A stretch of DNA of 64,000 nucleotides. Origin: Tetradesmus obliquus. Taxonomy: Eukaryota; Chlorophyta; Chlorophyceae; Sphaeropleales; Scenedesmaceae. Each line of letters opens with the position of its first letter. The first letter of the stretch is position 1. Below, piece by piece: positions 24,337 to 64,000 of the stretch. The notes beneath the pieces were generated by a model that worked only from the letters and a program-made list of their open reading frames with translations, ran no database searches and was not told the origin of the DNA. A program made the translations under genes and the position numbers. The stretch lies in NCBI GenBank assembly GCA_030272155.1, contig CP126198.1, positions 2,356,001 to 2,420,000 of the forward strand, written 5' to 3'.

Positions 24337-24344
24337 ACACACAC

Positions 24345-36039: not shown

Positions 36040-36237
36040 ATCTGCAAGGCGTGCAGGCAGCCACACAAGACAGGGTGCTGTGAGCACTATGGCTCAAAGA
36101 ACAAGACCACCACGCAGCTGTGGCTGAATTTGAAGCTGGTGGCTGTGGAGCCAGCAGGCAGAAACCACGTGGATGACTGGTATGACGCAGATTGCGGGGC
36201 TGGTGCTCCGGCCACTTTGCACTCAGTGGCATGGTGA
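36040..36237 (+). pseudogene. D5 helicase Cys-cluster tail fragment, copy B
   Basis: Starts within the Cys cluster (CKACRQPHKTGCCEHYGS) and reads KNKTTTQLWLNLKLV without the 1-bp insertion seen in copy A. All motif B/C sequence is missing because the duplication breakpoint lies just upstream, so this copy cannot encode a helicase. Confidence 0.6.
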
Positions 36238-37053: not shown

Positions 37054-38221
37054 TCAGCTAAGTCTCAGCTGCACTTCCTGCAGCCACTCCGCCTCCACTC
37101 TAGTCAGTGTCTCCAGCGCCTTACTGCTGCTAGTCTCAGAGGGCTGCAGAACATGCAGAATGCTGCTGATCTTGTCACTGCAGAGCTCCTGCAATTTGCG
37201 CTGCAACTGCAGGGGCTGGGCAAGGTCACGCACAGCATTCTGGTAGAAACGGCCCTTGATGAAGTTGCCTTCAAAACGCTCCACGCGGAACAGCTGAATC
37301 AGGTGCGTGCTGCTGCTGCTGCTGCTGCTGTGCTTGTTGCGGCTGCTCTTGCTGTTGCGCTTGTTGCTGCTACTGCTCTTGTTGGTGTTGCGCTTGCAGC
37401 TGCTGCCAGCGGCACCACCTGCATCTTCAGCAGTAGTAGCAGCAGCTGCTGCTGCCACCTTGAAGCTGGCTGGGTCGCGCGTGAAGGTGTCTGCATCAAC
37501 CTCCATGAACACGTGATCGCCCAGCTGCACCCAGCACGCATCATCCCCGGCCTCATCCTCATCAAGCCACACGCCAGGCCGGCCATCAGATACTGCAGGA
37601 GGAGGCTTCTGCACCTTTTGCTTCTTGCTGTTGTCCGCCTCTGCTGCTGCTGCTGCTGCTGCCAATGATGGCAGTGCCGTGCTTGCGCTTCTTGCCTGTG
37701 CTAGTAGGTGCTGCTGCTGCTGCTGGTGCTGCTGTAGGGATGGCAGCAGTGGTGCCACACGCTGGCACGGCAAGCCCTCTGAGGCTGCCTGTGATTGCCT
37801 GCAGGACAGCCTCAGGCACTGAAGCACCCTCGCGCACTGCTGCGTACAACTGCTTCAGCCCCTGCTTAATGGCTGCTGCCACAGCTGGGTCTGCTGCAAC
37901 CCTCAGCAAAGGCACCACGGCAGCTACTGCAGCAGCATGCGCAGCATCTGCCTCGCTGCTCAAAGCCATTGAGAGGTCTGACACTGAGTCCAGGGCTGCA
38001 GTCATGCTGATGGGGGGCTGTGCTGTCCTTGCTGCCTCTAGCAGCACTGGCGCTGGCGCTGCTGGCTGCTGCGGCTGCTGCACTGCAGTGACTGCTGCTG
38101 CAGCTGTGTTTGCGGCAGCACGCTGCTGCGGCCTCGCGCCATCCAGCTGCAGGGCGCCTGCAGGCAATGCAAAGGTGCAGGTGCCAGAAGAGGCATTATT
38201 AACATCGGCTTCACACAACAT
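37054..38221 (-). pseudogene. Ala-rich nuclear-type protein of unknown function, copy B (1-bp insertion)
   Basis: Same protein as at 24336-23156, with ATG at 38221. One extra A at about 37664 (GCCAATGATGG against GCCATGATGG in copy A) shifts the frame after GKKRKHGTAI, so the C-terminal half continues in another frame. The acidic patch and the region lost by 10 bp in copy A are intact here (DACWVQLGDHVFMEVDADTF). The two copies are therefore broken at different sites. Confidence 0.55.
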
Positions 38222-38229
38222 ACACACAC

Positions 38230-39300
38230 ATGCTACGCAGCAACCCCAAACCTCCTGGGAAGTATTGCCTAAGCATAGACCCGGGGACCCAGAATGCAGG
38301 CGTGTGCGCCTTTGACAGCACATCGCAAACCATTGTCTACTGGAATTGACACAAACTGCTGGACGTGCACGAGCAGGTAATACGCAGCACAGATCAGGTG
38401 AAGCTCTATCTGGACACAATCACAGACAACGTAGAGGCAGCACTGAAATGCAATGACTACTGGATCCTGGTTGAAGAGCAGCCCTGGGACACTGACGCCA
38501 AGAAGGGCATTGTTTTCAATCTCCAGTTGCAGCAGGCAATAGTGATGTACTTTTTATGCAGAGGCAAGACTGTTCGGGTGTTGAATGCCAGCGAGCGTTA
38601 CAAGTTCCTGGGAATCCCAAATTGGCAGCAGATGACCCGATTCTTCCGCAAAGTGAGCACAGCAAATGCTGTGCGACAGCTGCTGGAGCCAAGAGAAAAC
38701 AATGCCTTTGCAGCGCGCAAACATGATGTAAGGGTATCGCAGGCAGCGCGAGAGTCCCAGCATGACATGGCCGATGCCCTGGGGCAGGTGCTCTGCTACT
38801 TCTACAGGAACAGAGATGCAGTAACGGATGGCAGGGTGGTAGAAGCAGAGCTTACCAACAGGCTGCTGGTGGCCCCTGAGCAGCAATTCGCAACCAGCAG
38901 TGCACAGCAACAACAGCAGCAGCAGCCTAGCCTGAGATATGACCGCAGCAGCAGCGGTAGCTGCGGCGCAGGGCCTTCGTCTACTTCCCAGAAGAAGGCA
39001 AAGCATGACAGCGCAGCCCGGCACATCCAAGCCAAGGCACTGCTGCAGAAGACACTCACGCAGCTGCAGGCAGAACACTCAGAGCTGTTGCCACGCGCGC
39101 AAGGCTCAGCGCAGCAGCAGCAGAGCAGCAACGCACAGAAGCTGTATAAAGTGTATCAGACCCACAGAAACAGCAGAACCCTGCATGAGTTCTTGAAATA
39201 TCTCAGCGACTACAATCAGAAAGGAACCAATCTGTGCAACTTAGCCAACCTCAATGCCAGGCTGTCTCACCTATTGCAGCCGCCACGCGCTCCTCTGTGA
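38230..39300 (+). pseudogene. RuvC-like Holliday junction resolvase, copy B (nonsense at codon 40)
   Basis: Same start and RuvC motif as copy A, but codon 40 is TGA (38347-38349) where copy A has CGA, a single C-to-T change at a CpG. Re-initiation at an internal Met after codon 40 would lack catalytic D17. Downstream motifs (LVEEQPW, QHDMADALGQ) and the whole C-terminal tail (FLKYLSDYNQKG ... to TGA 39298-39300) remain open and are not frameshifted, unlike copy A. Its 3' end overlaps the convergent G2 copy (ending 39251) by 50 bp. Confidence 0.8.
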
Positions 39301-41942
39301 AGGTGCTGTACAGAGCAGGGTAGGCATAGCTGGCAGCATCGCCCCAAAACTTGGCCCCCAGCTTGTGGCTAGGCTGCTGCCAAAGCAGCAGTGTCTCGCC
39401 AGGCCAGACATACACGTCGCACGGCTGCTTGGCCCAGTTGCCGCTCAGCGGCCTGCCGCCAGCAACAAACTCAGCAGCCACGCGCACTTGCACGCGCTGC
39501 TGCTGCCCAGCTTGCATGTGCAGCCCTTCCTTGGTCATCAGCTGAGCAACAGTGTAGCGGCTGTAGGTGGTGCTGCGGACGCTGCAGCTGCCACCTAGAG
39601 CACACAGCGGCTTGGACAGCTGGCGCCACAGCTTGCTGTTTGGTACCAGCAGCAGCAAGCCAGCACCATGCCGCAGCGTGCTGGCGCCAGCAGGGCCTGG
39701 CGATGCTGTTGCTGTCTGTGCCAGCGCGCCTGCTGTTGACTCGAGTGATGCTGCTGCTGCTGGCTCTGCCGCCGCGGCTGCAGTGCCTGCAGTGCGTGCT
39801 GGCTCTGCTGCAGTTCTTGCTGGCTGTGCAGGCCCCGTTGCTGGACCACCCACCATCTGTGTTGGTGGCACTGCTGCTGCCTCCTGCGCAAGCGCAAGCG
39901 CAAGGCGGGTGTTGTTGCGCGCAGCAGCTGCTGCACTGTCTGCCATAGCTGCACTGGCATCTGCAGCAGCTGCGTTGCCGGCTGCCACGTGCCTCGCTGT
40001 GTCTGCAGCTGCCTGCACAGCAGATGCAGCAGCTGCTGCGGCTGTCGCTAGCACCGCATCGCTGTGCGCTGCTGGGTTTGCAAAGCTGCTTTTGATGGCA
40101 TCCCAATCGGCAGCCAGCAAGCACACCACGCTCTGCAGCAGCACTGGGCAGGCAGGCTTGGAGGGCAGCCTGTCTGCGCCGTACAGCTCTGCATTGCTGG
40201 CATGAATGCTCTCACGCAGCTGCTGCAGGTGCGCGTCTGCTTCTGCTGCTGACATGTGCTGGTACTGCCAGTCGCAGGCATCCCTGCATGATGCCAGCTG
40301 ATAGCCGCTGTGCATCAGCGGCACAGTCAGCTTGCGCAGCATCCCGCTCAGGCTGCCCTCTGCCTCCACGCAGTCGATGATGGACTGCCAGAGGTCCGGG
40401 GTGCACTTGTTGAGGCCGTAAAGCTGCGCCAGCTCTGTGGCCTGCTGCAGCTGCGCCCTGCCTGCCTCATCCAAGCCGGCCACCACGCCGCTGTTGGCCA
40501 GGGTGGGGCACCTGTTGCAGCATGCGGAGCAGCAAAGCAGGTCAGGTCAGGGGCAGTGCTGGTCAACTATTGTCTCCATCTAAACAGACTGGCAGCATGC
40601 TGGAGCAGAAATTGTTCCCAGCTGACCACTGCACAAGCCGCACAGGCAAGTCGCTCATGCCCAGTGCACAATCTCAGGCAGGCTGCTTACCAGCCCAGCA
40701 GTAACAGCTTGAAGGTAACAGTCTGCACATCTCTGCCAGCATGTTGCGCGTAGGGCAGCCGGTGCCCAAAGCCAAACAAGTAGTTGTCTACGTAGCTGCG
40801 CCAGGATTGGGCTGCTGCAGAGCGCCCAGCGCGCGCGATGTACCTGCAGGAGCAACCCCATGCACATGCATCAATACAAAAAGGATGGATGTGGCATCGT
40901 AGCGGCAGCAGCATCACAGCAGCTCCTTTGGGACAGGCAGGTCAGCATTAGCCTGTCACAGCCTGCAGTGCCCCATCATTTCCCTGGCAGAGCACCCAGC
41001 TGCAGGTCACTGCAGACTCACAATGACACAGGCAGGAGAACTCACCATTCCCAGAAGTCGCTGGAAAGGCTAGCCTTGAGCAGCTGCCTCATAATCAGGA
41101 ACACCTCGCCAGCATGCATGGAGCGGAAGCCGTACAAACTCGGGCGGTTGTGCTGCTGCATCAGGTCTGCTGGAGGAGCAGTGGTGCCTGCGAGCAGAGT
41201 GCAAGCAAGCATTGCCTGATTTACCAAGCCACTCCTGGAACAGCCGCACACATGCACAAACTGGGTGCAGCAACCATCTGGACTGCTTTGCACTTCTGAA
41301 TATTTGGGGTCAGAGGCAAAAATTCAAGGATTCGTGCGGCTTAATTGGAAAAGTGCTTTGCAATCCCATCTTGAATTTTTGCATTCTTGAATTTCCATAT
41401 ATAAGGGTGTGTGGAGAGAGGCTGATTAAGAGTTGTGTCAGCACAACACTGATGTGGGTTTGGCAGGGGCTGAAAAGGCGGTTATTCAGAATTGAAAAAG
41501 CAAGGCGCGGAACAGCTGCACAAGCTGTTGGCGTTGTTGTGAGTGGCTATTGTCATCGATAGTCATGTTCAAACTGCTACTTCAGGACTTGGCTTTTCAA
41601 TGAACAGACATTCATAAGACCCAGAAGCAGATCTCACCCTTGGACTTGTCAAAGCTGTTGCCCAGGAATTTGGCTCCTGCCAGAGCAGAGTTGACCATGC
41701 TTGGGGTGACCTCGTCAAAGCTGGCAACATGCTGGAGCCCCCCATACGGCAGGGTGAAGCCCATGGCATTGTTCAGAGTGTGCTGAGTGCCAGTGATGTT
41801 ACCCTCACCACTGCTGCTGCTGCTGCTGCTGTTGCCGCTGCTCCTCCTTCTGCTGCTGCTGGCTGCACCTGCACAGCTGCTGCTGGAGGGACTGCCCGGC
41901 CCCCCGCTGCTGTTTGATAATGGGCTCTGCTGGTGATACTGG
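39251..41942 (-). CDS. Spliced gene of unknown function (G2), copy B
   Basis: Exon structure matches copy A: exon ending about 41638, then 41187-41046, 40843-40691 and 40511-39251, all in phase. The Ala-rich linker is shorter by an in-frame deletion, and scattered substitutions keep the frame open, suggesting constraint or recency. The 5' end is ambiguous as in copy A. Confidence 0.6.
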
Positions 41943-42026
41943 CTGCAGGTACGTGAGCACAGCAAAGGCCAGGGCAGTGATGCTGGCCAGGCACAGGCCG
42001 CTGCAGGCTGCAGGCAGGATGTCATG

Positions 42027-43724
42027 CTACTCTGGCGTGCCAAAGTCCATGTAGCCTTTGCAGTGGTAGTACACTGCAGCAAAGCCTGTGCCTAGTGTGG
42101 CCTGAAACTGCGTCAGCAGCCCGCTGAGACCCAGCACCCATACTGGTGGCTCAGCTGACAGCCCTGGTACAGAGCTGTGATCCCAGGTGCCCCGCGCTGT
42201 CTCAGCCTGGCGCGAGCCCATGTACAGGTGCTGAGCTGTGGCCAGCAGGGCCTGTGCAGCCTGCCGCGCCCGGAACGCTGCGCTGGTTGTGGCGAACTGC
42301 CCGCCGCTGGTCAGCCTGCTTGGATGAAACCACATGGGGTCGCCGCGCTCCTTGGAAGGCAGTTGCTGAGCACTGCAGGCAGGGCATGAGTACACAGTAA
42401 GGCAACGCACAGTCAGCTGCAAGAGGCAAGTGAACTTGGCTAGACTGCTGCTGGTATAGGAGAGATACAGTGCCAGCTGGCAGTCAAGCATCCTTCACCA
42501 CACATGGGCACATGCAGCATCAGCGAAAAGCTGGCGTAGTTTGGGATGGTGCCTACTTGATATCCTTGAGCGCTGACAGCAGCTCAGCTTCAAGGTACAT
42601 GACCTTCTCCACTGCGTTGTTGAAGCTGACTGGCATGGCCTTGAACCGCGGCTTTGAGGTGCCTGCAAGTGCTGCTGCTGCTCTCTTGCTGCTGCCAGGA
42701 GGGCGCCCACCCTGCGACGGGCAGGTGAAAATGCTTCAGGTGCTGGACTTGGAGGTGGTTACCATCTGAAAGCAAAAACCTGAAGCATTTTCACCAAGGT
42801 ACAGCATATGCTTTCTGCAAGCATTTGCCAGCTCTTTGCATCTTCAGTAGGTTTGTGCAATTGAAGAGCTTCTGCAGGCTGTCTTAGTACACAAAAGTGA
42901 GCAGGCAAGTGCTGAAGTTCACCTTGCAGCCCCACCACGCCTCCATAAGGCGGGTGATGGTCCTAGAGTTTGCAGGCAAAGCCAGGTCAACCTGCACAGG
43001 AGCATCAACGGTTAGAGAGATGGCGCCACACCCAGCTGCTGAGCGAAGCTAAGTACCGCCTGCAAATTCACCTGCAGCTGCTGGATCCTGCCATCAGCAT
43101 CCTTGTACTCAATGTGGCGCTTGCAAGTGGCCTGCTGCTCTGAAGACAGGGCGAGAGTGCGGCCAAGCCACAGTGGTAGCCGCAGTTCCTGCACAAGCTG
43201 TGGGGGAGTTAGTAGCCAGTACATTCAACAGGCTAGGAGCTGATGCCAGCAACACCTGACATACCTGGTCCTGCACGGTGCTGAGAAGCAGCTGCAGCGA
43301 CATGCCCGCAGCCAAGCTTGCGCAAATCATAGACTCCCATTGCTGCAGGTCACCGTTCACGATTATATCAAAGGCATGCACTCCAGCGTGTTGAGCCCTC
43401 TGCTGTAGGCGCTGCAAAGCAGCACGCTGGGATGCACTGCTGATGTTGATGCTGTCAGGCAAATGCTGCAGAGGCTGAAGTTGCCTGCCCAAGAGCCCTG
43501 CCACAGAAAACACTCTTGCAGAAACTTTGCTTTGTGCAACAGCCACATCTTGAGAATCTGCTGCTGAGGTGAGGCTGCTGCTGAAGGCTGCAGACAGACA
43601 CAAAAGAGCAGACGGGCGCATTCAGCACATCTGCAGCCACACGAGGCATGCTAACAGGCGTACGTGTGTTGTATATTTGCAGATCACCTTGAACACCGGG
43701 TAGCTTCTGCACAGCGCGCAGCAT
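42027..43724 (-). CDS. Six-exon gene of unknown function (G1), copy B
   Basis: Counterpart of 29877-28180 at an offset of 13,847. All splice sites and the TAG stop are preserved; the few replacements seen include MLRAVQK at the start and a Gln/Leu change after GLLGRQ. The intron-4 hairpin is conserved. Confidence 0.75.
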
Positions 43725-44298
43725 TGGTGTGCTGCTACTGCTTGGTTGCTGCTGCTGCTGCTTGCTCCTTGTGGTTCCCTAGCTGCTGTCGGTTCGTTAA
43801 AGTCGTTGAACGTCCTTAGTTAGCATATTAAAGTGCTCCTCAAGCTGCATCGCTACTTTCACACGACAACACCGGATGCGTCTGATGCCCCTCGTCGCAG
43901 TTCGGTCGCCTGAACAATATTTCTATGGGTGCCACGCCAGTCTGAAGACATGTTTGCAAACCAAATGCTGGAAGAATTATTTCAACACATTATAAAGTCT
44001 TGCTGCCTGATCACATTCCCTGCCAAGAAACAGAAGGTCGCCAGTTACAAAACAACTCTGAATGAACATTCAGCAGCCTCCCCCTTGCCCCACGTGGGGG
44101 AGTGGGCCTGAGCTCCTTTGAAATCAACACAAGAATGCCTGCACAAGACACCAAGCGCTGTACATGACGCTGTTGAACAGCAAGAAAACACTGCAGCCAA
44201 GTTGCATCATGCAGTGCACACTGCTGGCACCTACTAGCCTGAGGCCTGCAACAACACCTCAACTGCACACCATAATGCTAGTGACATGACACAGACCC

Positions 44299-44490
44299 CT
44301 ATTCTGACTCGCTACCGATATCTACATCATCAAACAGCAGCTCCTCTACCTCTGCCACCAATGATGGGTCTAGCTGCTGCAAAATCTCTGATAAATATCC
44401 CTGCTTGTCAGGTTCTAGGGTATACACCACCCCTGCCACTCCAGCAGGCCGTGGCAGCTTCTGCACCCTGCGCTGAAGGCTCAGCGGCAT
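44299..44490 (-). CDS. Small acidic-tailed ORF or last exon, copy B
   Basis: No difference seen from the 63-codon frame at 30647-30456, including the acidic C-terminus and the upstream acceptor. Confidence 0.5.
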   Translation of the reverse strand: MPLSLQRRVQKLPRPAGVAGVVYTLEPDKQGYLSEILQQLDPSLVAEVEELLFDDVDIGSESE

Positions 44491-44592
44491 GTGCAAGTTG
44501 CGCTGCTGGTTAAAGTAGAAGCTGTGAATAATAAACAAACGACGCACACGCTGTTTGCACGTTGCAAATCGCCAAGCCAATATGGCTATGCC

Positions 44593-47500
44593 TCAGGTGC
44601 TAGAGGGCACCAGTGACATGCTGTTCAACATTTGGAACATGCGAGCTGCCCACTTGCGTGGCAGCCACGCACAAAGCACAAAGCTGGCCAGCATCACGTT
44701 TAGACTATTGTCCAAACTGGCCAACTGCCGCTCGCACGCTGGTCTATGGCTGCACCGGCCACCGCCACCACAGCCTTGAAGATGATCTGGACAGTAGACG
44801 ACAGCCTTGACGGCAGAGTGCCTGCATGCCATCAGTGCACCTTGAGGTGGCCAAATTGCACGACACCTTCTGCATGACAGAATGACACGCAATAAGAACA
44901 CGTCCCTGTATGAACTTATGGGTCGCTTTCAACGAACAGCAAACAAAAGCGCACCAAGGCATATGCTATGCATGCTGTTGCCAGTTGATCACCAGTGCAC
45001 AAACGCACCACATATTCATCTTGCACCCTTTTAGTTTTCCCTCCACAGAGATGCCGAAGGAATGGTTATTATTATTTATTACAGAGATGCCGAGACATGG
45101 CATTGATGCTATGGTTTTCGACTGATAGCATGAATATGCAGCTGCTATCCCCTAGGACATAACACACCCTCACCTTGCTGTAAAGCCGCAATCTGCTTTG
45201 ACTGCTTCTCAATCTGCTGCTTCATCTGCTCCAGCTTCTCGTCAATGATCTCCTCCATGGTGACCATGCGGGAGTTGAAGGTCTTCCTGCCCAGTGCCTG
45301 GTTAGCAGCTGCAACCAGCGTGCGGCACCACATATGCGTGTCAGCAGCACACAACCATGCAAAGCATGCCTGCTCGCTTGTTGCTATGTGTGCCAGCAAC
45401 TGCATGCGCTAATGCACTTAGTAGCAGCACTGAGCACTGGCCAACAAGGGCCAAGGCAACAAGCAGCATGCAATAACCACAACATACTGAAGAACCTCGA
45501 CTCCCATCCCTGCGTCGCCCCAAACAACACAGAACTACACAAGATATACTCCTACCAGTCCCGCTTATGTAATTGCTGTTGATGGCTTAGCACATCAGCA
45601 ACAGTTGGCAATGAATGACAGGATGTTGCTGCAAAGCCTGGGGCGTGCTGAGCTGCTGATATGAATCTGGACATTAAAGGACAGCACAAGGTGGAGCTGC
45701 TGGCCACGACGTCTTTTTATTGCACTGCAAAGGCCGCGGCAACAGGCAATGCACAAGGCGATAATCATTGCAGCAGCAGGTGAAGCATGCGTGCACATCG
45801 CACTGATGCAGCACACATGATCTGCAACACTGCAGCTGTGTGGGGTTTCACAGCTGCTTTGCATGCATCAGCAGACAATGTAGCTTCGGCAGGCTTGCCA
45901 CAAGCACCATCGCAAGCATATCAATAACTCACCTGCTGTTGCTGCTGCTGCTGTGGGATGAGACAGAAGACAGGTGGGAGCCGTGAAGAGCACATGCAAG
46001 GACATGCATACAGGGCGCTATTCAGCGAAGGGTCAAACAAACAGGCTTGCAATATGAAAGCACAGGGGCATGCAGCACACACGAGCACGCAGGATGGTGT
46101 TGCAGGGCTGCCTGTTGCGTTAGAAGTGTTCAAGCATGCCCCATGACACTTTACAAGCACATTGTAAAATACGCCCTAGCAGAGCGCTGCTTGGTGGGCA
46201 TGCACAGCATGTGATAACCCAGCTTGTGCAATCAATAGATTCATAGACTAATCCATGCTGCTGTGGCAGCTCAAGCTGCAGAAACCCCTTCCATGGGACC
46301 AGCATGTACTCGTGCAGGAGAGTTAGCAGCAACTGCTGGCATGCGCCACATGCGGCAACTTCATGCTAACATGCCACAAATGCATGCAACTCCAGCGCTC
46401 ACCTGGTGCTGCTGTGGTAAAGCAAGGGCCACCAAGGAATGGCAGATGATGGCGCATGCACGGGAGCAGGGCAGGGCAGGGCAGCACGTGTGTCAAGCAC
46501 AGGTTGACAATGGTGTTGTGTGTAACTAACTGTTGTGTGCAATGAGTATTCCGTTGCATGCAGCAGCATCCAGCAGTGCAGAACAGTAATGCATTCTTGT
46601 CTTTTTGACACCGCATTATGTTTTGACAGCGCAGAGTGCACACAAATAGCAATCAATGTGTGCAGTGTGTGGTGCATAATGCACTTGGGAGGGCAATGTG
46701 TTATAGCAGGAAGATACAACCAAGTTGCGGCATAAGCCTTGACATGGTTAACCTTAGATGCCTCGCTGATGCTGATGATTAGCAGACATGCATGACAGCT
46801 AGCATGCTGCATAATGGGGTGCAGGTTGTACTCCTGACAATGATTCATGCTGTTGCATGGGGTTGCACGGCTGCTCCACACACAGCAGCAAGCAATGCTG
46901 GTTTGGCAGGCTTGCCACAAGCACCATTGCAAGCACACGCACGACTCACCTGCTGCTGCTGTGGGTTGAAAGAAAAAGCCAGGTGGGAGCCGTGAAGAGC
47001 ACATGCAAAAGCACACGGGCAGGGCCAGGTTCAGCAAAAGGTCAAACAAAGAAGCTTGCAGCATGAAAGCACAGTGGCATGCAGCACACAGGAGCACGCA
47101 GGATGGTGTTGCAGGGCTGCCTGGTATTGTATTTCACAAGTATTTCACAGGTATTTCACAAGTGTTCAAGCATGCCTCATGACACTGCTTACAAGCACAT
47201 TGTAAATTACGCCCTAGCAGAGCGCTGCTTGGTGGGCATGCTCAGCATGTGATAATCCAGCTTGCACCATCAATAAAGTCATAGACTGCCCCGTGTTGCT
47301 GTGGCAGTTCAAGCTGCAGCAAACCCCGGGGAAGGGCCTTCCATGGGCCCAGCAAATAGTCTTGCAGAAAAGTTTGCAGCAACTGCTGGCCTGCGCCACA
47401 GGCAGCTACTTGATGCCAGCATGCCACCAATGCATGCAACTCCAATGCTCACCTGGTGCTGTTGTGGTAAAGCACGGGCCACCGAGGAATGGCAGGTGAT

Positions 47501-52849: not shown

Positions 52850-53110
52850 GCGTGTGCTGGTGGTGCCTGAGAACGTAACAACCAGGTTTCACCCCTCAGG
52901 GCGGAGCATGCACAGACACTTGCGTGTTTTTAGTATGGATGTTCAAACGTCACAAAACTCGACCTCCCCTCCCACTGATCCCTGGTTATGCCCCGAAATA
53001 AATACGCGAATCCTGCTTAGCCCACGGGTACCAGCTGGGCATGGTACAAATGTAGCGAACAAGTGGCCTACATATAAATGTCAAGCTTTCAACGACGAAT
53101 CTAAATCAAT

Positions 53111-53910
53111 TTGAGCTGTTAGCAGTGGCACAGTGTGCTGCAAGAAAAGTGCTAAAACACGTTGCCCTGAAGTGCCCCGACTCGACTGTTACATATGTTA
53201 ACTTGCGCTGTAGAGTGTTGCTGTGGGTGCTGCTGCCTGCAACATGTTTTGATGTGTAATGTAATACTTCTGGGCTTCCCTTGCTGGCTGATCAGGCACT
53301 GCAGTTCTGGTGTGCCAAGTGCCCTGCCGCTGCTGTTGCGCTCTGCTGCTTGGCGCTGTGCGCTGCACATACAGTTTCAACTGTCATATCTGTGACATAC
53401 TGCGCAACACCGCTTCAGGCCCACCGGCAGCTGCTGCGCGCGTGCAGCTAGTGTGGCTGCACAGAGTTTGTTGAGTACTAGTATTCTACACAGTTTCCTG
53501 CAAACATCCTTCTTGTGTGATCAAGGCGAATTCTGGAGCTCAAAATTACTAGCAGTTTGGAGCTGCTGCTGCTGGCAGGTGAGGCCCTGCTGTGCAGTTG
53601 GGATGCAAGCAAACCAAAGCAGCAGCACTGGCAGCTGTGCCTTACTGTGCCTGCCACATACAGCAGGTTGCTATGCCAGCATGGCTGTCTGCTTGCAAGC
53701 TGTGTTGATTTGTTGCAAAATGCAGATGCTGCGTTTGTACCATGCCCAGCTGAGACTGTAATTGCATGCCAGCCTTTGCTGCAGCAGTTCTTAGCCTGCA
53801 CTGCATCCCTTCTGTTGCTGTTCCTGGACTTGGTGCCTGAAGTGCACACCTACCTTTTTATGCTATGGCTGATGTGCTCCTGCTGCTGCTGGGTATGCAG
53901 CTGATTTTAC
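53111..53910 (+). other. Possible upstream exons of the nuclease-like gene, unit 1
   Basis: Two protein-like stretches precede the firm exons. One (from about 53116) is open for over 100 codons in unit 3 (LADQALQFWCAKCPAAAVAL) but is stopped by TAA at about 53256-53258 in units 1 and 2. The other (about 53557-53900) reads LLLLAGEALLCSWDAS, VDLLQNADAAFV, LLLLFLDLVPEVHTYL and ends near a GTATGC donor. Linkage to downstream exons is unproven. Confidence 0.35.
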
Positions 53911-54168
53911 TGCGGCAGTAGCACTGTTTGCAATCTATGATATCTGCCTGGGCAGGAGCAGCAGCAGCAGCAGACGACAGGAAACGTTACAGCTATGTGT
54001 GCTTTGAATCACGGTGGCATGTGCTTTTCAACTGCAGTTGTTGGTGGGCGTGACAGCAGCAGCATGTGCCAGCAGGTGCCTCACTGCTGCTACCTAATTT
54101 TTTTGCGAAGGCTTTCAGTACAGCGCTGTGTTCAACGTCGTTTAATGTTCATTCCAAATTGTTTACAG

Positions 54169-56310
54169 GTGCTGCAGCAACGCGATCGAGCTGCAGTGCT
54201 CTGGACATCCGTGTTGACCCGTCAGGCTCACCTGCAACGTGGGCTTGCGAGGGCCCTTCAGGATTGGTTTTCTGCCTCAACCAAAGGTACGTTGCATAAT
54301 GTGTCGACGATGATGAGTTGGCAGCGTGGCAGCTGTGTGGCTCGGAGCAGGCTTGTTTCAGGGCACCTTTCCGTCTTGAAGTTCTTCACCATACCGCAGT
54401 TTATTTCGGCTCGAGCCATGCTTAAATCAATCATCAAATATAAAAGTTAATTTACCGCAAGGTTTCTTGCAGGCTCCGTGCATAAAGCTTGGCAGGCCAA
54501 CAGTCGTCACAACTCACGCGAGTGACAGCAGCAGGAGCCATGTTCAAGAGCTACGAGCGTAGTTGAATTATGCCAGGAATTTTTCCGTTACATTCGGCAA
54601 TTCAGCATGACTGCAAATGCCTGTATGTGAAATGGCCACCAAGTGCCTTGCTGCCTTGCAGCAGTTGTTTGAAGCAGGAACCACTCCTGACAAGTCTGAG
54701 CACCAAAGCACAACATCCACATGTAGTTTACTCATACCATAAGCTTCTGAACATGCCATTTCGTTCCCACACTCGCTCTCAGGTGAACACCAGGAAGTAA
54801 CCACCCTACAGCAGCATGGTGCCAGCACCTCCCAAGCCCCGGGCGGTGCGAACATGCAGGACGGCGACAAGCGCAGGTGCCCTCAAACAGGTGAGCTCAA
54901 GGGCTCTCTGAGTGACACCCTGTGCACTGCTGGCTAGCCATCTTGCATGCAGCTGACAGCCACAATCCCTACATGCCATGCAGCAGCACAACAGCAGACT
55001 CAGCGCTGGTCTTTCCTGGGGTAGTCGCCAGCAGTGCCGCGGCGCTGCTTCCCGTCTCGGCACACACAAAGACTCCTCTTGCGGCTGCGCACCATGTTCC
55101 ACAAATCTGGCAGCTTCAATACATCAGCCATGACAGATGCAGCTGTGATCTTCATAAAGGTGTTGTACAGGCCGTGCTGCAGGTCTCGCGGCTTCACATC
55201 AGCACCACCCAGCTGGCAGCTGTTATACAAGTAGTTGCGGAAGGCTGCTTTGAGGCTGCCAAATGCATGTTCAATGGGCTTGTTGAAATCTGGGGAGTAG
55301 GGTGCAAAGTGCAGCAGTTGATCTTCATTGATGCCACCTGCAACCAACATCTGTAGGCCATCCTTCCCCAGGTGAACACTTGGGTTGTCAAAGATGTACA
55401 GCGGCGTAGTGCCGCGCTGCGCCTGCTGTTGGTTGGCTATGTCTTTGATCTCCATCATGCAGTGAACAAACTCCAGCTGAGTCATGCTCTTGGCCTGCTG
55501 GGTTGGTTTGTCCTTCAACTGCAGGTGCAAGAATTGCCGGATTGGCAGCGCGCAGCCTTGTTAGCAGCGCAGGAGCGCAACGCAGCGGTGTGGATGGATG
55601 CGATGGGACGCTTCTACATCAGGCTCAGTGCAGACAAGGTCAGATACATCACCAAGTCTATGAGGGGGCAGAGATTGTTCTGGGGCTTGACTGGCTGCTT
55701 GCCAGGTGTGCAGCACTTCAAGTTCTGCGCGCCGCGTGCAGTCGCCACAGCAGCAGCGCTTCAGTGCAAGATGTGTGCATGTGTGCTGGCTGATATGGTT
55801 GGCACATGCATGGGCTACATGCACACAAGCGAGGAGCAGCTGGTGTGCATGCTGTACTGGTTAGGCACCAGCAGCAGTATGTGTGCTCAGGTAGCAGTGG
55901 ACTGGTGGGATGGGCGGATTGATTTCCTCCATGCACAGCACAACATGCTGATTCAAGCTGATGGCTCATGTCATGACAAGGGTTATTACAGCAGCAGCAG
56001 GCAGCTGGTGCTGGAGCGCGACTTTGAGTTCTGCGCTGCAGCATATGACAACTGGCTGCAGCCAGGGGGCAGTGTGCTGCGCGTGAGCATGCGCGGATGT
56101 GACATGCACCAATCCTTGCACATTGGTTTCCAGCTTGCTGCTGCAGGTGGTGTCATTGTACTGTCACCAAGTTACTCTGCTGTTATGTTCACAGCAGAGG
56201 ACGGGCAGCGCTGCAGCTTCACTACAGCACTAAAAAAAGCACTGCGGGACTGTTACTACACAGTACAGCAGGGCTGGCATGTCTTTCAATGGCAGGCGCC
56301 TGCGCAGTAG
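54169..56310 (+). CDS. PD-(D/E)XK / DUF559-like nuclease-fold protein, 3+ exons, unit 1
   Basis: Exons 54169-54286, 54783-54890 and 55532 (or 55525)-56310 join in phase; the first two meet at a split Gly codon. The last exon contains TSEEQLVCMLYWLG, WWDGRIDFLHAQHNMLIQADG, SCHDKGYY, a stretch with R..V.ERDFEF and GGSVLRVS. This order (S/T-E helix, strand with D, the strand LIxxDG..H, D..R, then VLRV) is that of DUF559/Vsr-type PD-(D/E)XK nucleases. The usual Glu in I-E-x-D-G is Gln here (IQADG), so activity is doubtful; the Asp and His remain. A Cys pair (CKMCAC) precedes the fold. The last exon lies entirely inside the transposase intron on the other strand. Confidence 0.6.
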
Positions 56311-57203
56311 CAGCGCACACTCACCATGTACGGTACATTGAGGTTGCCAACATGGTCCTTGTTGTCTGTTGTGCCGGTGACAAACTTGCAGTAGACGGGC
56401 CCGTGCACAGCGTTGACGGCGCAGACAAAGTGCAACTTGACCGGCTCTGCGTCCTTGCCCTTGCGCATCCATTTGCATGGCAGCACAGCATGCACGTTTT
56501 CATCGTGTGCATCACAATAGACCTTGACGGAGCCGCCTGCCAGGTCTGACATCCAGAATTTGCACTCATCAATGAAATATATGCGCTGCAGCATGTCGGG
56601 GTCACTTTGGTACTTCTGCCACAGCGCCGCAGCTGCTGCCTTTCGCCTTTGTTTCTGTATCTTTGTCAAGTCCAGCTTCACATCTATTCTCCTGCGCACC
56701 AGGTCGGGGTCAGCCCATTTCATGTACTTCAGCAGTCTCTTGGGTGTGATGTTGTAGTCAGTGCACAGCTGGCGCAGTGTGTCATTTTCCTGACATGCGA
56801 CTTCGATTGAAGTCCACCACACGTGCACATCAACCTTTCTCTTTGATTCTGCAGATGGGTAGGCCTTTACCACCTTGCCAGCCTTGAATATTGTGCTGGC
56901 ATGGAAGGCGACAGCATGTGGGACATTTGAGGGCCTGCCGCCATGCTTGGGTGTAGCCACTGTGCCGTTTGCTGTGAAGTTCTTGTGATGAAGTTTGCAG
57001 AACAGGTTCAGGTCCCCGTGTACCTCCTTGGCGTAGTCAGGGTACTGCTCTCTGTAATAATATGCGGGCGTAAACTTTTCGTCAGCTGTGGTCAAAGCCA
57101 TTATCACACACACCACCGCCGCCACCCTCATGGCCGTGGTGCTGCGGTTGCTCTTCCATCCTGAAGGGTGCTTGCGCACCATGGACAGCCCCCCTGCAGG
57201 CAT
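55000..57203 (-). CDS. Tc1/mariner-IS630 type DDE transposase, 2 exons, unit 1
   Basis: Exon 1 is 57203-56325 (donor ATG|GTGAGT) and exon 2 is 55518-55000 (acceptor CTGCAG), joined in phase 0 to give 465 residues. The N-terminal half has a helix-turn-helix-like stretch (TLRQLCTDYNITPKRLLKYM) and basic helices. Catalytic motifs: YFIDECKFW (first Asp), YIFDNPSVHLG (second Asp) and APYSPDFNKPIEHAFGSLK (third residue Glu in PIE), with 38 residues between the second Asp and the Glu. This is the DDE_3 pattern of Tc1/mariner and IS630 enzymes, which cut and paste DNA usually at TA sites. The 806-bp intron contains the complete last exon of the opposite-strand nuclease-like gene. Confidence 0.85.
55519..55524. 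promoter_or_regulatory. Bidirectional 3' splice acceptor (CTGCAG palindrome)
   Basis: On the plus strand TCCTTCAACTGCAG precedes the nuclease-like exon; on the minus strand TTGCACCTGCAG precedes transposase exon 2. The same six bases end both introns. For the plus-strand gene a second AG 8 bp downstream gives better phase. Confidence 0.6.
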
Positions 57204-58448
57204 GAATCCAAAACATATGGATATGTTAGCTGTGCTTCTAGCAGCAGTGTGAACAGAAGTAACTGGTCAGGTCAAACAACAGCCTGCGGCATCATGGAGT
57301 TTGACCGGTCTCAGCTGGGCATGGTACAAATGTAGCGAACAAGTGGCCTACATATAAATGTCAAGCTTTCAACGACGAATCTAAATCAATTTGAGCTGTT
57401 AGCAGTGGCACAGTGTGCTGCAAGAAAAGTGCTAAAACACGTTGCCCTGAAGTGCCCCGACTCGACTGTTACATATGTTAACTTGCGCTGTAGAGTGTTG
57501 CTGTGGGTGCTGCTGCCTGCAACATGTTTTGATGTGTAATGTAATACTTCTGGGCTTCCCTTGCTGGCTGATCAGGCACTGCAGTTCTGGTGTGCCAAGT
57601 GCCCTGCCGCTGCTGTTGCGCTCTGCTGCTTGGCGCTGTGCGCTGCACATACAGTTTCAACTGTCATATCTGTGACATACTGCGCAACACCGCTTCAGGC
57701 CCACCGGCAGCTGCTGCGCGCGTGCAGCTAGTGTGGCTGCACAGAGTTTGTTGAGTACTAGTATTCTACACAGTTTCCTGCAAACATCCTTCTTGTGTGA
57801 TCAAGGCGAATTCTGGAGCTCAAAATTACTAGCAGTTTGGAGCTGCTGCTGCTGGCAGGTGAGGCCCTGCTGTGCAGTTGGGATGCAAGCAAACCAAAGC
57901 AGCAGCACTGGCAGCTGTGCCTTACTGTGCCTGCCACATACAGCAGGTTGCTATGCCAGCATGGCTGTCTGCTTGCAAGCTGTGTTGATTTGTTGCAAAA
58001 TGCAGATGCTGCGTTTGTACCATGCCCAGCTGAGACTGTAATTGCATGCCAGCCTTTGCTGCAGCAGTTCTTAGCCTGCACTGCATCCCTTCTGTTGCTG
58101 TTCCTGGACTTGGTGCCTGAAGTGCACACCTACCTTTTTATGCTATGGCTGATGTGCTCCTGCTGCTGCTGGGTATGCAGCTGATTTTACTGCGGCAGTA
58201 GCACTGTTTGCAATCTATGATATCTGCCTGGGCAGGAGCAGCAGCAGCAGCAGACGACAGGAAACGTTACAGCTATGTGTGCTTTGAATCACGGTGGCAT
58301 GTGCTTTTCAACTGCAGTTGTTGGTGGGCGTGACAGCAGCAGCATGTGCCAGCAGGTGCCTCACTGCTGCTACCTAATTTTTTTGCGAAGGCTTTCAGTA
58401 CAGCGCTGTGTTCAACGTCGTTTAATGTTCATTCCAAATTGTTTACAG

Positions 58449-60590
58449 GTGCTGCAGCAACGCGATCGAGCTGCAGTGCTCTGGACATCCGTGTTGACCC
58501 GTCAGGCTCACCTGCAACGTGGGCTTGCGAGGGCCCTTCAGGATTGGTTTTCTGCCTCAACCAAAGGTACGTTGCATAATGTGTCGACGATGATGAGTTG
58601 GCAGCGTGGCAGCTGTGTGGCTCGGAGCAGGCTTGTTTCAGGGCACCTTTCCGTCTTGAAGTTCTTCACCATACCGCAGTTTATTTCGGCTCGAGCCATG
58701 CTTAAATCAATCATCAAATATAAAAGTTAATTTACCGCAAGGTTTCTTGCAGGCTCCGTGCATAAAGCTTGGCAGGCCAACAGTCGTCACAACTCACGCG
58801 AGTGACAGCAGCAGGAGCCATGTTCAAGAGCTACGAGCGTAGTTGAATTATGCCAGGAATTTTTCCGTTACATTCGGCAATTCAGCATGACTGCAAATGC
58901 CTGTATGTGAAATGGCCACCAAGTGCCTTGCTGCCTTGCAGCAGTTGTTTGAAGCAGGAACCACTCCTGACAAGTCTGAGCACCAAAGCACAACATCCAC
59001 ATGTAGTTTACTCATACCATAAGCTTCTGAACATGCCATTTCGTTCCCACACTCGCTCTCAGGTGAACACCAGGAAGTAACCACCCTACAGCAGCATGGT
59101 GCCAGCACCTCCCAAGCCCCGGGCGGTGCGAACATGCAGGACGGCGACAAGCGCAGGTGCCCTCAAACAGGTGAGCTCAAGGGCTCTCTGAGTGACACCC
59201 TGTGCACTGCTGGCTAGCCATCTTGCATGCAGCTGACAGCCACAATCCCTACATGCCATGCAGCAGCACAACAGCAGACTCAGCGCTGGTCTTTCCTGGG
59301 GTAGTCGCCAGCAGTGCCGCGGCGCTGCTTCCCGTCTCGGCACACACAAAGACTCCTCTTGCGGCTGCGCACCATGTTCCACAAATCTGGCAGCTTCAAT
59401 ACATCAGCCATGACAGATGCAGCTGTGATCTTCATAAAGGTGTTGTACAGGCCGTGCTGCAGGTCTCGCGGCTTCACATCAGCACCACCCAGCTGGCAGC
59501 TGTTATACAAGTAGTTGCGGAAGGCTGCTTTGAGGCTGCCAAATGCATGTTCAATGGGCTTGTTGAAATCTGGGGAGTAGGGTGCAAAGTGCAGCAGTTG
59601 ATCTTCATTGATGCCACCTGCAACCAACATCTGTAGGCCATCCTTCCCCAGGTGAACACTTGGGTTGTCAAAGATGTACAGCGGCGTAGTGCCGCGCTGC
59701 GCCTGCTGTTGGTTGGCTATGTCTTTGATCTCCATCATGCAGTGAACAAACTCCAGCTGAGTCATGCTCTTGGCCTGCTGGGTTGGTTTGTCCTTCAACT
59801 GCAGGTGCAAGAATTGCCGGATTGGCAGCGCGCAGCCTTGTTAGCAGCGCAGGAGCGCAACGCAGCGGTGTGGATGGATGCGATGGGACGCTTCTACATC
59901 AGGCTCAGTGCAGACAAGGTCAGATACATCACCAAGTCTATGAGGGGGCAGAGATTGTTCTGGGGCTTGACTGGCTGCTTGCCAGGTGTGCAGCACTTCA
60001 AGTTCTGCGCGCCGCGTGCAGTCGCCACAGCAGCAGCGCTTCAGTGCAAGATGTGTGCATGTGTGCTGGCTGATATGGTTGGCACATGCATGGGCTACAT
60101 GCACACAAGCGAGGAGCAGCTGGTGTGCATGCTGTACTGGTTAGGCACCAGCAGCAGTATGTGTGCTCAGGTAGCAGTGGACTGGTGGGATGGGCGGATT
60201 GATTTCCTCCATGCACAGCACAACATGCTGATTCAAGCTGATGGCTCATGTCATGACAAGGGTTATTACAGCAGCAGCAGGCAGCTGGTGCTGGAGCGCG
60301 ACTTTGAGTTCTGCGCTGCAGCATATGACAACTGGCTGCAGCCAGGGGGCAGTGTGCTGCGCGTGAGCATGCGCGGATGTGACATGCACCAATCCTTGCA
60401 CATTGGTTTCCAGCTTGCTGCTGCAGGTGGTGTCATTGTACTGTCACCAAGTTACTCTGCTGTTATGTTCACAGCAGAGGACGGGCAGCGCTGCAGCTTC
60501 ACTACAGCACTAAAAAAAGCACTGCGGGACTGTTACTACACAGTACAGCAGGGCTGGCATGTCTTTCAATGGCAGGCGCCTGCGCAGTAG
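58449..60590 (+). CDS. PD-(D/E)XK / DUF559-like protein, unit 2
   Basis: Exons 58449-58566, 59063-59170 and 59812 (or 59805)-60590, the same sequence as unit 1 and nested in the same way in the transposase intron of unit 2. The Gln-for-Glu change in IQADG is shared. Confidence 0.6.
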
Positions 60591-61483
60591 CAGCGCACAC
60601 TCACCATGTACGGTACATTGAGGTTGCCAACATGGTCCTTGTTGTCTGTTGTGCCGGTGACAAACTTGCAGTAGACGGGCCCGTGCACAGCGTTGACGGC
60701 GCAGACAAAGTGCAACTTGACCGGCTCTGCGTCCTTGCCCTTGCGCATCCATTTGCATGGCAGCACAGCATGCACGTTTTCATCGTGTGCATCACAATAG
60801 ACCTTGACGGAGCCGCCTGCCAGGTCTGACATCCAGAATTTGCACTCATCAATGAAATATATGCGCTGCAGCATGTCGGGGTCACTTTGGTACTTCTGCC
60901 ACAGCGCCGCAGCTGCTGCCTTTCGCCTTTGTTTCTGTATCTTTGTCAAGTCCAGCTTCACATCTATTCTCCTGCGCACCAGGTCGGGGTCAGCCCATTT
61001 CATGTACTTCAGCAGTCTCTTGGGTGTGATGTTGTAGTCAGTGCACAGCTGGCGCAGTGTGTCATTTTCCTGACATGCGACTTCGATTGAAGTCCACCAC
61101 ACGTGCACATCAACCTTTCTCTTTGATTCTGCAGATGGGTAGGCCTTTACCACCTTGCCAGCCTTGAATATTGTGCTGGCATGGAAGGCGACAGCATGTG
61201 GGACATTTGAGGGCCTGCCGCCATGCTTGGGTGTAGCCACTGTGCCGTTTGCTGTGAAGTTCTTGTGATGAAGTTTGCAGAACAGGTTCAGGTCCCCGTG
61301 TACCTCCTTGGCGTAGTCAGGGTACTGCTCTCTGTAATAATATGCGGGCGTAAACTTTTCGTCAGCTGTGGTCAAAGCCATTATCACACACACCACCGCC
61401 GCCACCCTCATGGCCGTGGTGCTGCGGTTGCTCTTCCATCCTGAAGGGTGCTTGCGCACCATGGACAGCCCCCCTGCAGGCAT
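59280..61483 (-). CDS. Tc1/mariner-IS630 type DDE transposase, unit 2
   Basis: Exons 61483-60605 and 59798-59280, the same as unit 1 with an intact DDE motif set and intact splice sites. No frame damage was seen, so it may be functional. Confidence 0.85.
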
Positions 61484-61684
61484 GAATCCAAAACATATGG
61501 ATATGTTAGCTGTGCTTCTAGCAGCAGTGTGAACAGAAGTAACTGGTCAGGTCAAACAACAGCCTGCGGCATCATGGAGTTTGACCGGTCTCAGCTGGGC
61601 ATGGTACAAATGTAGCGAACAAGTGGCCTACATATAAATGTCAAGCTTTCAACGACGAATCTAAATCAATTTGAGCTGTTAGCA

Positions 61685-62011
61685 GTGGCACAGTGTGCTG
61701 CAAGAAAAGTGCTAAAACACGTTGCCCTGAAGTGCCCCGACTCGGCTGTTACATATGTTAACTTGCGCTGTAGAGTGTTGCTGTGGGTGCTGCTGCCTGC
61801 AACATGTTTTGATGTGTATTGTAATTCTTCTGGGCTTCCCTTGCTGGCTGATCAGGCACTGCAGTTCTGGTGTGCCAAGTGCCCTGCCGCTGCTGTTGCG
61901 CTCTGCTGCTTGGCGCTGTGCGCTGCACATACAGTTTCAACTGTCATATCTGTGACATACTGCGCAACACCGCTTCAGGCCCACCGGCAGCTGCTGCGCG
62001 CGTGCAGCTAG
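61685..62011 (+). other. Candidate 5' exon of the nuclease-like gene, open only in unit 3
   Basis: A 108-codon open frame rich in Ala, Leu and Cys (ALQFWCAKCPAAAVALCC). In units 1 and 2 the same frame is stopped by TAA where this unit has TAT. It begins after an AG acceptor-like site with no ATG. It may be the ancestral form of an exon now lost in the other units, or simply non-coding. Confidence 0.35.
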
Positions 62012-62728
62012 TGTGGCTGCACAGAGTTTGTTGAGTACTAGTATTCTACACAGTTTCCTGCAAACATCCTTCTTGTGTGATCAAGGCGAATTCTGGAGCT
62101 CAAAATTACTAGCAGTTTGGAGCTGCTGCTGCTGGCAGGTGAGGCCCTGCTGTGCAGTTGGGATGCAAGCAAACCAAAGCAGCAGCACTGGCAGCTGTGC
62201 CTTACTGTGCCTGCCACATACAGCAGGTTGCTATGCCAGCATGGCTGTCTGCTTGCAAGCTGTGTTGATTTGTTGCAAAATGCAGATGCTGCGTTTGTAC
62301 CATGCCCAGCTGAGACTGTAATTGCATGCCAGCCTTTGCTGCAGCAGTTCTTAGCCTGCACTGCATCCCTTCTGTTGCTGTTCCTGGACTTGGTGCCTGA
62401 AGTGCACACCTACCTTTTTATGCTATGGCTGATGTGCTCCTGCTGCTGCTGGGTATGCAGCTGATTTTACTGCGGCAGTAGCACTGTTTGCAATCTATGA
62501 TATCTGCCTGGGCAGGAGCAGCAGCAGCAGCAGACGACAGGAAACGTTACAGCTATGTGTGCTTTGAATCACGGTGGCATGTGCTTTTCAACTGCAGTTG
62601 TTGGTGGGCGTGACAGCAGCAGCATGTGCCAGCAGGTGCCTCACTGCTGCTACCTAATTTTTTTGCGAAGGCTTTCAGTACAGCGCTGTGTTCAACGTCG
62701 TTTAATGTTCATTCCAAATTGTTTACAG

Positions 62729-64000
62729 GTGCTGCAGCAACGCGATCGAGCTGCAGTGCTCTGGACATCCGTGTTGACCCGTCAGGCTCACCTGCAACGT
62801 GGGCTTGCGAGGGCCCTTCAGGATTGGTTTTCTGCCTCAACCAAAGGTACGTTGCATAATGTGTCGACGATGATGAGTTGGCAGCGTGGCAGCTGTGTGG
62901 CTCGGAGCAGGCTTGTTTCAGGGCACCTTTCCGTCTTGAAGTTCTTCACCATACCGCAGTTTATTTCGGCTCGAGCCATGCTTAAATCAATCATCAAATA
63001 TAAAAGTTAATTTACCGCAAGGTTTCTTGCAGGCTCCGTGCATAAAGCTTGGCAGGCCAACAGTCGTCACAACTCACGCGAGTGACAGCAGCAGGAGCCA
63101 TGTTCAAGAGCTACGAGCGTAGTTGAATTATGCCAGGAATTTTTCCGTTACATTCGGCAATTCAGCATGACTGCAAATGCCTGTATGTGAAATGGCCACC
63201 AAGTGCCTTGCTGCCTTGCAGCAGTTGTTTGAAGCAGGAACCACTCCTGACAAGTCTGAGCACCAAAGCACAACATCCACATGTAGTTTACTCATACCAT
63301 AAGCTTCTGAACATGCCATTTCGTTCCCACACTCGCTCTCAGGTGAACACCAGGAAGTAACCACCCTACAGCAGCATGGTGCCAGCACCTCCCAAGCCCC
63401 GGGCGGTGCGAACATGCAGGACGGCGACAAGCGCAGGTGCCCTCAAACAGGTGAGCTCAAGGGCTCTCTGAGTGACACCCTGTGCACTGCTGGCTAGCCA
63501 TCTTGCATGCAGCTGACAGCCACAATCCCTACATGCCATGCAGCAGCACAACAGCAGACTCAGCGCTGGTCTTTCCTGGGGTAGTCGCCAGCAGTGCCGC
63601 GGCGCTGCTTCCCGTCTCGGCACACACAAAGACTCCTCTTGCGGCTGCGCACCATGTTCCACAAATCTGGCAGCTTCAATACATCAGCCATGACAGATGC
63701 AGCTGTGATCTTCATAAAGGTGTTGTACAGGCCGTGCTGCAGGTCTCGCGGCTTCACATCAGCACCACCCAGCTGGCAGCTGTTATACAAGTAGTTGCGG
63801 AAGGCTGCTTTGAGGCTGCCAAATGCATGTTCAATGGGCTTGTTGAAATCTGGGGAGTAGGGTGCAAAGTGCAGCAGTTGATCTTCATTGATGCCACCTG
63901 CAACCAACATCTGTAGGCCATCCTTCCCCAGGTGAACACTTGGGTTGTCAAAGATGTACAGCGGCGTAGTGCCGCGCTGCGCCTGCTGTTGGTTGGCTAT
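62729..64000 (+). CDS. PD-(D/E)XK / DUF559-like gene, unit 3, truncated by window end
   Basis: Contains the first two firm exons (62729-62846, 63343-63450), the same as in unit 1. The nuclease-fold exon lies beyond the window. Confidence 0.5.
63560..64000 (-). CDS. DDE transposase exon 2, unit 3, partial
   Basis: The C-terminal exon with the SPDFNKPIEHAF motif is present from the stop at 63560 to the window edge; exon 1 lies outside. Confidence 0.75.
   Translation of the reverse strand: MANQQQAQRGTTPLYIFDNPSVHLGKDGLQMLVAGGINEDQLLHFAPYSPDFNKPIEHAFGSLKAAFRNYLYNSCQLGGADVKPRDLQHGLYNTFMKITAASVMADVLKLPDLWNMVRSRKRSLCVCRDGKQRRGTAGDYPRKDQR

Follow-up and report, generated by a model that had tools for sequence, protein, structure and literature searches.

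A very probable composite-like, array-forming DNA transposon of the IS630-Tc1-mariner group with interlocked transposase and nuclease-like genes in the green alga Tetradesmus obliquus

The window analysed here, i.e. the whole stretch of 64,000 nucleotides at positions 2,356,001 to 2,420,000 of contig CP126198.1 of the green alga Tetradesmus obliquus, contains the beginning of a tandem array made up by what is very probably a composite-like DNA transposon of the IS630-Tc1-mariner group. The element follows the formula LTDR-INT-LTDR (LTDR, long terminal direct repeat; INT, internal region), forms arrays and carries a transposase gene and a nuclease-like gene that are interlocked on opposite strands. 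A sequence-only reading of the same DNA had proposed a two-gene mobile element with a transposase and a nuclease-like partner, and this is supported, the arrangement being kept in a diverged lineage of the element. The larger structure, with direct repeats and a tandem array, was absent from that reading, and the locus it described is a single unit in a tandem array with a 4,280-bp period.

The array is head-to-tail with a period of 4,280 bp, each unit consisting of a 721-bp LTDR and a 3,559-bp INT. Its left end is marked by the target site duplication TAC (53029..53031), the partner of which lies beyond the window near C8:2438995, after the final direct repeat. LTDR 1 (53032..53752, plus strand; 721 bp) has its own inverted ends, CAGCTGGGCATGGTACAAA / TTTGTACCATGCCCAGCTG (25 nt, 92%), and is followed by INT 1 (53753..57311; 3,559 bp), which starts with AGAC and ends with GTCT as inverted tips, and by LTDR 2 (57312..58032, plus strand), common to units 1 and 2. 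The fetched elements and array ends begin and finish with an LTDR, and the copy on C1 is a lone LTDR-INT-LTDR of 5,001 bp. Among the nine loci of small elements with both ends in hand, eight have a full LTDR at both ends and one (L038) has a full and a partial one. Partial LTDRs were seen twice, on the right-hand side of L038 and at the close of the C16 array near 0.22 Mb, where an unmatched stretch of ~0.5 kb precedes it. An LTDR standing alone was found once (C1:9134755) among the first 100 LTDR ends listed.

The outer target duplications are 3 bp long and match in 12 of 13 cases: TAC on C8, TAC on C16, CGG on C12, ACC on C1, AAT, TCA, TCT and AAC at L031, L032, L033 and L036, and CCT, GTA, TAC and ATC at L038, L039, L040 and L041. 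Not included in the count are L035 and the array on C16 near 0.72 Mb, for each of which a single end was available. Some arrays among the matches listed comprise tens of units, e.g. those on C12, C4 and C13. Compared to the first unit of the C8 array, the units of the same array differ at 0-6 positions and near-full-length units elsewhere at 10-15, and such C8-specific variants are as expected from growth and homogenisation of arrays in situ. The orientation of the parts varies to some extent: in L032 (G000:C5:6497531-6502900) the INT is inverted relative to both LTDRs (A+ B- A+) with the duplication TCA intact, and the C16 array near 0.21 Mb has mixed orientations. In the diverged lineage the LTDR is ~72% identical and likewise part of INT-bearing elements. 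The INT tips are inverted repeats in both lineages, AGAC..GTCT in one and AAGGC..GCCTT in the other (L039, 971 and 4565), and it seems that the pairing of the tips itself has been kept despite the different letters. The diverged-lineage element L039 (G000:C13:4257801-4263400) has the ends CACTAGG/CACTG, of which CACTAGG is the left one; an identity with CACTA/EnSpm, considered for this end and the 3-bp duplication, was rejected, as the transposase matches mariner/IS630.

The transposase gene is read from the minus strand. Exon 1 (56325..57203; 293 codons) holds the first catalytic D, the intron (55519..56324; 806 nt, GTGAGT..CTGCAG) encloses the last exon of the nuclease-like gene, and exon 2 with the stop (55000..55518) holds the second D and the E, with 38 residues between them. 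The donor G/GTGAGT at 56324 and the acceptor CTGCAG/TTG at 55519 (slashes mark the splice sites) give a phase 0 join and, as predicted from the window sequence, a protein of 465 residues. In a protein database search the joined query found exon-1 homologues down to E 4.7e-196. The profile of these homologues matched Mos1 transposase (E 0.0013, chain 86-167); for the exon-2 profile, Hsmar1/SETMAR ranked first (E 0.044, chain 119-188). The two matches are collinear portions of a single catalytic domain, and therefore splicing is needed to join them. The DDE_3 family was matched in 12 of 14 exon-2 members and IS630 likewise in 12 of 14, and HTH_32, an N-terminal helix-turn-helix, in 1 of 17 exon-1 members. 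The donor valine codon is reached at the identical column in 15 of 16 exon-1 database homologues (28-99% identity); in the remaining one, P0014, the valine stands two columns further on. Judged by its sequence, the transposase is of the DDE type of the IS630-Tc1-mariner group in the wide sense.

On the plus strand, the nuclease-like gene has a proposed coding exon 1 (54816..54890), which is short and basic (25 codons; MVPAPPKPRAVRTCRTATSAGALKQ in the window, MAPAHRRRRAVRTHRSPTSRGAVRK in diverged relatives) and has an in-frame stop at 54798 preceding its ATG. An intron (54891..55524; GTGAGC..CTGCAG), which encloses transposase exon 2, separates it from the last exon with the stop (55525..56310), for which a Vsr/DUF559-type PD-(D/E)XK fold is predicted. 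For the acceptor, the sequence-only reading had given either 55524 or 55531. The former stands, as it joins in phase 0 to the 25-codon exon 1, the ATG and preceding stop of which are conserved in the diverged lineage, and the latter falls, being out of phase in that lineage. Further plus-gene exons upstream were not borne out, identity there being ~55-57% without an excess at third positions, and a gene model from about 54100 with the 55531 acceptor was rejected for want of an upstream coding signal and for its wrong phase in the diverged lineage. The plus-strand open reading frame stays open upstream of the acceptor and finds homologues down to E 4.3e-163 in the protein database search. In three diverged-lineage loci the first in-frame M past the acceptor is residue 58, and therefore the gene requires an upstream exon. 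The predicted structure, of moderate confidence, has the fold alpha-beta-beta-beta-alpha-beta, and its best fold match is Vsr endonuclease (VIA-align). The DUF559 signature of catalytic residues is D ... E-x-D-x-x-x-H, and both D residues and the H are invariant or almost invariant across an alignment reaching down to 35% identity. Searching PDB sequences with the nuclease alignment was unproductive and no NCBIfam family matched the protein; the fold match list holds no His-Me structures, an absence that falls short of proof. With moderate confidence, we regard the plus-strand product as a Vsr/DUF559-like PD-(D/E)XK protein and a putative nuclease.

The two genes meet at the palindrome CTGCAG (55519..55524), which provides the acceptor AG of both introns, one per strand. 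This double-acceptor sequence, TTCAACTGCAGGTGCARG, has 269 exact occurrences in the genome and its reversed control none, and all four splice sites, both genes and the layout are kept in the lineage that is ~27% diverged in DNA. The sequence-only reading had placed transposase exon 2 inside the plus-gene intron and the last plus-gene exon inside the transposase intron (56324-55519); both placements agree with the splice sites read in the window and are conserved in the diverged lineage, and the transposase donor, acceptor and exon-2 end and the plus-gene donor at 54891 were found just as it gave them. The coordinates confirm that the coding sequences of the two genes do not overlap. That the genes are inseparable, each having its last exon in the intron of the other, is supported by the layout and by its preservation in the diverged lineage. 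Conservation of the antisense frame and of the introns in related elements was checked on the diverged lineage of the same genome, and both are kept. Since the introns are interlocked, the primary transcripts of the two genes are forced to overlap, by at least 1,311 bases (55000-56310) as deduced from the gene models. The spliced mRNAs are likely to overlap at their 3' ends too, because 14 bases lie between the stop of the nuclease-like gene and transposase exon 1 and the next TGTAA motifs, TGTAA being the algal signal, are as distant as 57053 (plus) and 54588 (minus). Coupling of expression via antisense pairing, as the sequence-only reading had put forward, is possible. In the literature listings searched, no transposon with reciprocally nested introns was reported.

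The diverged lineage is ~73% identical in DNA, and the copies sampled come from C4, from two places on C13, from C14 and from C6, the C6 copy (L035) being incomplete. Between the window and this lineage, amino-acid identity is 67-68% in transposase exon 1, 63-66% in exon 2 and ~54-57% in the second gene. The ratio of nonsynonymous to synonymous substitution rates (dN/dS) ranges over 0.32-0.34 in transposase exon 1, 0.35-0.38 in exon 2 and 0.53-0.54 in nuclease-like exon 2, and a ratio of 1 or above was obtained in 0 of 2000 bootstraps in each of the six comparisons. For the window and C4 copies the values are 0.32 (bootstrap 0.22-0.46), 0.35 (0.22-0.57) and 0.54 (0.39-0.74), respectively. In nuclease-like exon 1 omega is 0.62, the 25 codons being too few to judge. 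By codon position, the nuclease-like changes number 74, 69 and 84 in exon 2 and 6, 9 and 8 in exon 1. On these substitution patterns, both genes are under purifying selection.

A conserved 24-mer of the second gene has 268 exact occurrences in the genome, and we estimate about 270 copies of the element, roughly 1% of the genome, the counts being of exact matches only (24-mer and double-acceptor sequence). Nuclease-like exon 2 is full length in 37 of the 41 fetched copies, cut by the stretch end in one and shorter in three, and the transposase donor and nuclease-like exon 1 are each present in 38 of the 41. Both transposase exons and the second gene were matched in all 14 loci L028-L041. Some copies are damaged: transposase exon 1 has early stops in one C16 copy and in L033, the exon-2 end is altered in L035 and L037, and L039 has a frameshift in the second gene. 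Among the matches listed, the second gene contains a stop codon in all 11 C17 copies (TGA; G000:C17:931051-1034878) and a TAA stop in two C16 copies (735923 and 748763), and because of these stops it seems that a damaged unit has also been amplified. Outside this genome, the element was met here only in the form of database proteins; no relative was confirmed in viral contigs scanned with both alignments or in bacterial/archaeal genome contigs scanned with the transposase alignment.

Precise loss of single LTDRs can be read from the joints between units. A single exact pattern, confined to direct joints and to the lineage seen in the window, detected 30 direct INT-INT junctions without an LTDR in the genome. 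Between the INT tips stands CAG in 18, CTG in 11 and CACTG in one, so that 29 junctions leave 3 nt and one leaves 5 nt, and CAG is the terminal trinucleotide of the left LTDR end, CTG that of the right one. Junctions inside one array may be copies of a single event. A staggered mariner-type cut followed by end joining leaves a footprint of 3 nt, and single LTDRs appear to have been lost by mariner-type excision.

The element shares with Tc1/mariner (Mos1, Hsmar1) and the IS630 group the DDE_3/IS630 catalytic domain and the D-D-E with 38-residue spacing, and with mariner the 3-nt excision footprint. In contrast to strict Tc1/mariner, it has a 3-bp duplication without the TA rule, as well as long direct repeats, a second gene and a domain split by an intron, and because of the duplication it is not Tc1/mariner in the strict sense. 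Zator has a 3-bp target duplication; to our knowledge neither a second nuclease gene nor an LTDR is known in it, and it was compared by description. In Tn7, TnsA/TnsB pair a PD-(D/E)XK nuclease with a DDE transposase. Tn7 is, however, bacterial, with a different transposase and without introns or LTDRs, and in the present element the partnership is putative. In the passages cited, the target duplication of Tc1/mariner is TA and that of Fot types TAA/TAAA (PMC7386202), that of Sailor is TATA (PMC8533490), and Zator is a superfamily of the same wider group (PMC7386202).

KolobokP has been reported from seven animal phyla by Kojima & Bao (2022, PMC9587614), and according to these authors its direct repeats are unlike any other DNA transposon; our comparisons refer to excerpts of that paper. 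Like KolobokP, the element has an LTDR-INT-LTDR structure with short inverted ends on each LTDR, multimers of the form (LTDR-INT)n-LTDR with INT-INT joints where an LTDR is lost, target duplications around whole multimers, and an INT coding for a DDE transposase and a complementary-strand nuclease, here nuclease-like (PMC9587614). The LTDR is about 450 or 660 bp in KolobokP and 721 bp here, and the autonomous oyster families are 4.0-4.7 kb compared to 5.0 kb here (PMC9587614). In contrast, the transposase here is of the IS630/mariner type and not of the Kolobok superfamily, the Kolobok hallmark [C/D]xxH being absent from the 38 residues between D and E in the window copy. The second protein looks Vsr/DUF559-like, that of KolobokP being a nuclease of the His-Me finger (His-Cys box) type, the footprint here retains 3 nt from the LTDR end whereas KolobokP loses 1-5 flanking bp, and the host is a green alga and not an animal. 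The arrays here reach tens of units. The claim that no described transposon has such an arrangement needs qualifying: KolobokP combines a DDE transposase with a complementary-strand nuclease, but one placed downstream of it instead of being interlocked with it. KolobokE and KolobokD also have a DDE transposase together with a PD-(D/E)XK or DEDDh nuclease (PMC9587614), but theirs belongs to another superfamily, the nucleases are lambda-exonuclease-like or DnaQ-like, and the excerpts mention no LTDRs. The literature listings searched (for reciprocal nesting, accessory nucleases and LTDRs outside Kolobok) contained no LTDR DNA transposon other than KolobokP.

Several points weigh against reading the locus as a transposon with this pair of genes. 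The target duplication of L037 is mismatched (TAT vs TCT, 1 of 13), the SETMAR match is weak, with unrelated chains including CENPJ next at E 0.11-0.31, and 0 of 16 protein-database matches span both transposase exons, none of them running into exon-2 sequence. The nuclease model is moderate, with a mean predicted local distance difference test score (pLDDT) of 63 and core blocks of 58-92, DUF559 matches are weak (window copy 11.6 bits vs the cut-off of 20.6), DUF6239 scores slightly above DUF559 in one member, and the slight third-position excess of the gene speaks against a strong coding claim. In addition, multiplication by recombination is a step that we infer from structure alone. The signature glutamate, presumably catalytic in DUF559, is replaced by glutamine in 19 of 19 members, the fold is shared with RAP-type proteins, these and mitochondrial-ribosome proteins are among the best fold matches, and dN/dS is above that of the transposase, all of which would fit a RAP-like nucleic-acid-binding or regulatory protein that has kept the fold and lost catalysis. 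We regard this as unlikely in view of the near-invariant D, D and H, presumably of the same signature, and of Vsr endonuclease as the best fold match. It is doubtful, if conceivable, that the second gene is a TnsA-like partner that cuts the strand spared by the DDE transposase and is needed for transposition, the arrays being a side effect of ordinary direct-repeat recombination. The combination of PD-(D/E)XK and DDE proteins is known from Tn7, Vsr is a DNA-nicking enzyme resembling the second protein in fold, and the second gene accompanies both transposase exons in 14 of 14 loci (L028-L041), but mariner-type transposases cleave both strands unaided, the 3-nt footprints fit a transposase cutting both strands alone, and KolobokP, with a different nuclease, forms multimers too (PMC9587614).

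The remaining alternatives concern the unity of the element. It is very unlikely that two unrelated repeats are involved, with the LTDR as a 721-bp miniature inverted-repeat transposable element (MITE) lying by chance between tandem 3.56-kb transposon copies. The LTDR does possess inverted ends of its own, and some units have lost it precisely, but target duplications flank the entire element, full LTDRs stand at both ends of eight of nine small elements (L038 with a full and a partial one) and at the ends of the C1 copy and fetched arrays, the LTDR is ~72% identical alongside the INT in the diverged lineage, and a solo LTDR was met once among the first 100 ends listed. That there are no real introns, the frames encoding separate polypeptides or being accidental in a decayed repeat, is hardly credible: the intron falls between catalytic residues that belong to a single transposase domain, the splice donor and acceptor have been conserved, both genes are under purifying selection, and 37 of the 41 fetched copies have second-gene exon 2 at full length, with one more cut by the stretch end, although the protein database search gave no spliced product and the plus frame is open upstream of its acceptor. 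Least credible of all is that a single dispersed transposon was misassembled into arrays. Near-identical units in a row do pose an assembly problem, but three arrays have the identical 3-bp duplication at both outer ends, C8 units share variants without counterpart elsewhere, and units missing an LTDR carry precise footprints. A simple satellite was likewise rejected, as was an artefact, on the outer target duplications and the array-specific variants.

For the composite-like transposon, the following mechanism may be proposed. The transposase would pair left and right LTDR ends in any combination, moving the whole element by cut and paste and excising single LTDRs. Breaks at LTDRs, arising from excision or from the nuclease, would be repaired on neighbouring or sister units, and such unequal recombination could add units and both build and homogenise arrays of tens of copies. 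This mode of array growth follows the model proposed for KolobokP (PMC9587614, in the excerpts). The interlocked introns would hold the two genes physically inseparable, and transcription of one strand may limit that of the other, given the overlapping primary transcripts. We lean, with some reserve, towards a new IS630-Tc1-mariner lineage, perhaps a superfamily, that has independently arrived at the life style of KolobokP, with inverted-ended direct repeats, a nuclease and self-driven tandem amplification. Its two convergent genes would be locked by reciprocal introns on a shared palindromic acceptor, with the effect that loss of one alone is barred and that transcription of each opposes that of the other.

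In the rest of the array within the window, INT 2 (58033..61591), belonging to the second unit, has the same genes at +4280 with open frames (nuclease-like exons 59096-59170 and 59805-60590, plus strand; transposase exons 61483-60605 and 59798-59280, minus strand). It is followed by LTDR 3 (61592..62312, plus strand) and INT 3 (62313..64000), which is cut by the window end, and the array continues to about C8:2438994. Separate from the transposon array, 20500-33500 and 36000-47500 form a diverged direct duplication with a spacing of about 13.84-13.90 kb, and the copies of this 13.85-kb duplication have long identical DNA stretches in common. Each contains one of two related frames (24318-25442 and 38350-39300, both plus strand); the start of the former (SIDPGTQNAGVC...) seems to resemble that of a RuvC/A22-type resolvase, and Pfam gave no match for this frame. 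A 533-codon armadillo/HEAT-repeat frame at 17168-18769 (plus strand; Pfam Arm E 2.3e-64) is encoded by a 129-bp tandem repeat.

It seems that the element represents a second, probably independent origin of a composite-like LTDR transposon, here with interlocked genes. If it is a second KolobokP-like case, direct repeats with inverted ends together with a nuclease would be a recurrent strategy, found with another transposase superfamily, another nuclease-like protein and a non-animal host. The proposed nuclease-induced unequal crossover would then become testable by comparing the features common to the two unrelated nucleases. The arrays may provide a route from a cut-and-paste transposon to large satellite-like tandem arrays, with footprints that can be read. 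The reciprocal intron nesting on one bidirectional acceptor is an unusual layout, and its presence in ~270 copies and two diverged lineages would make its function testable.

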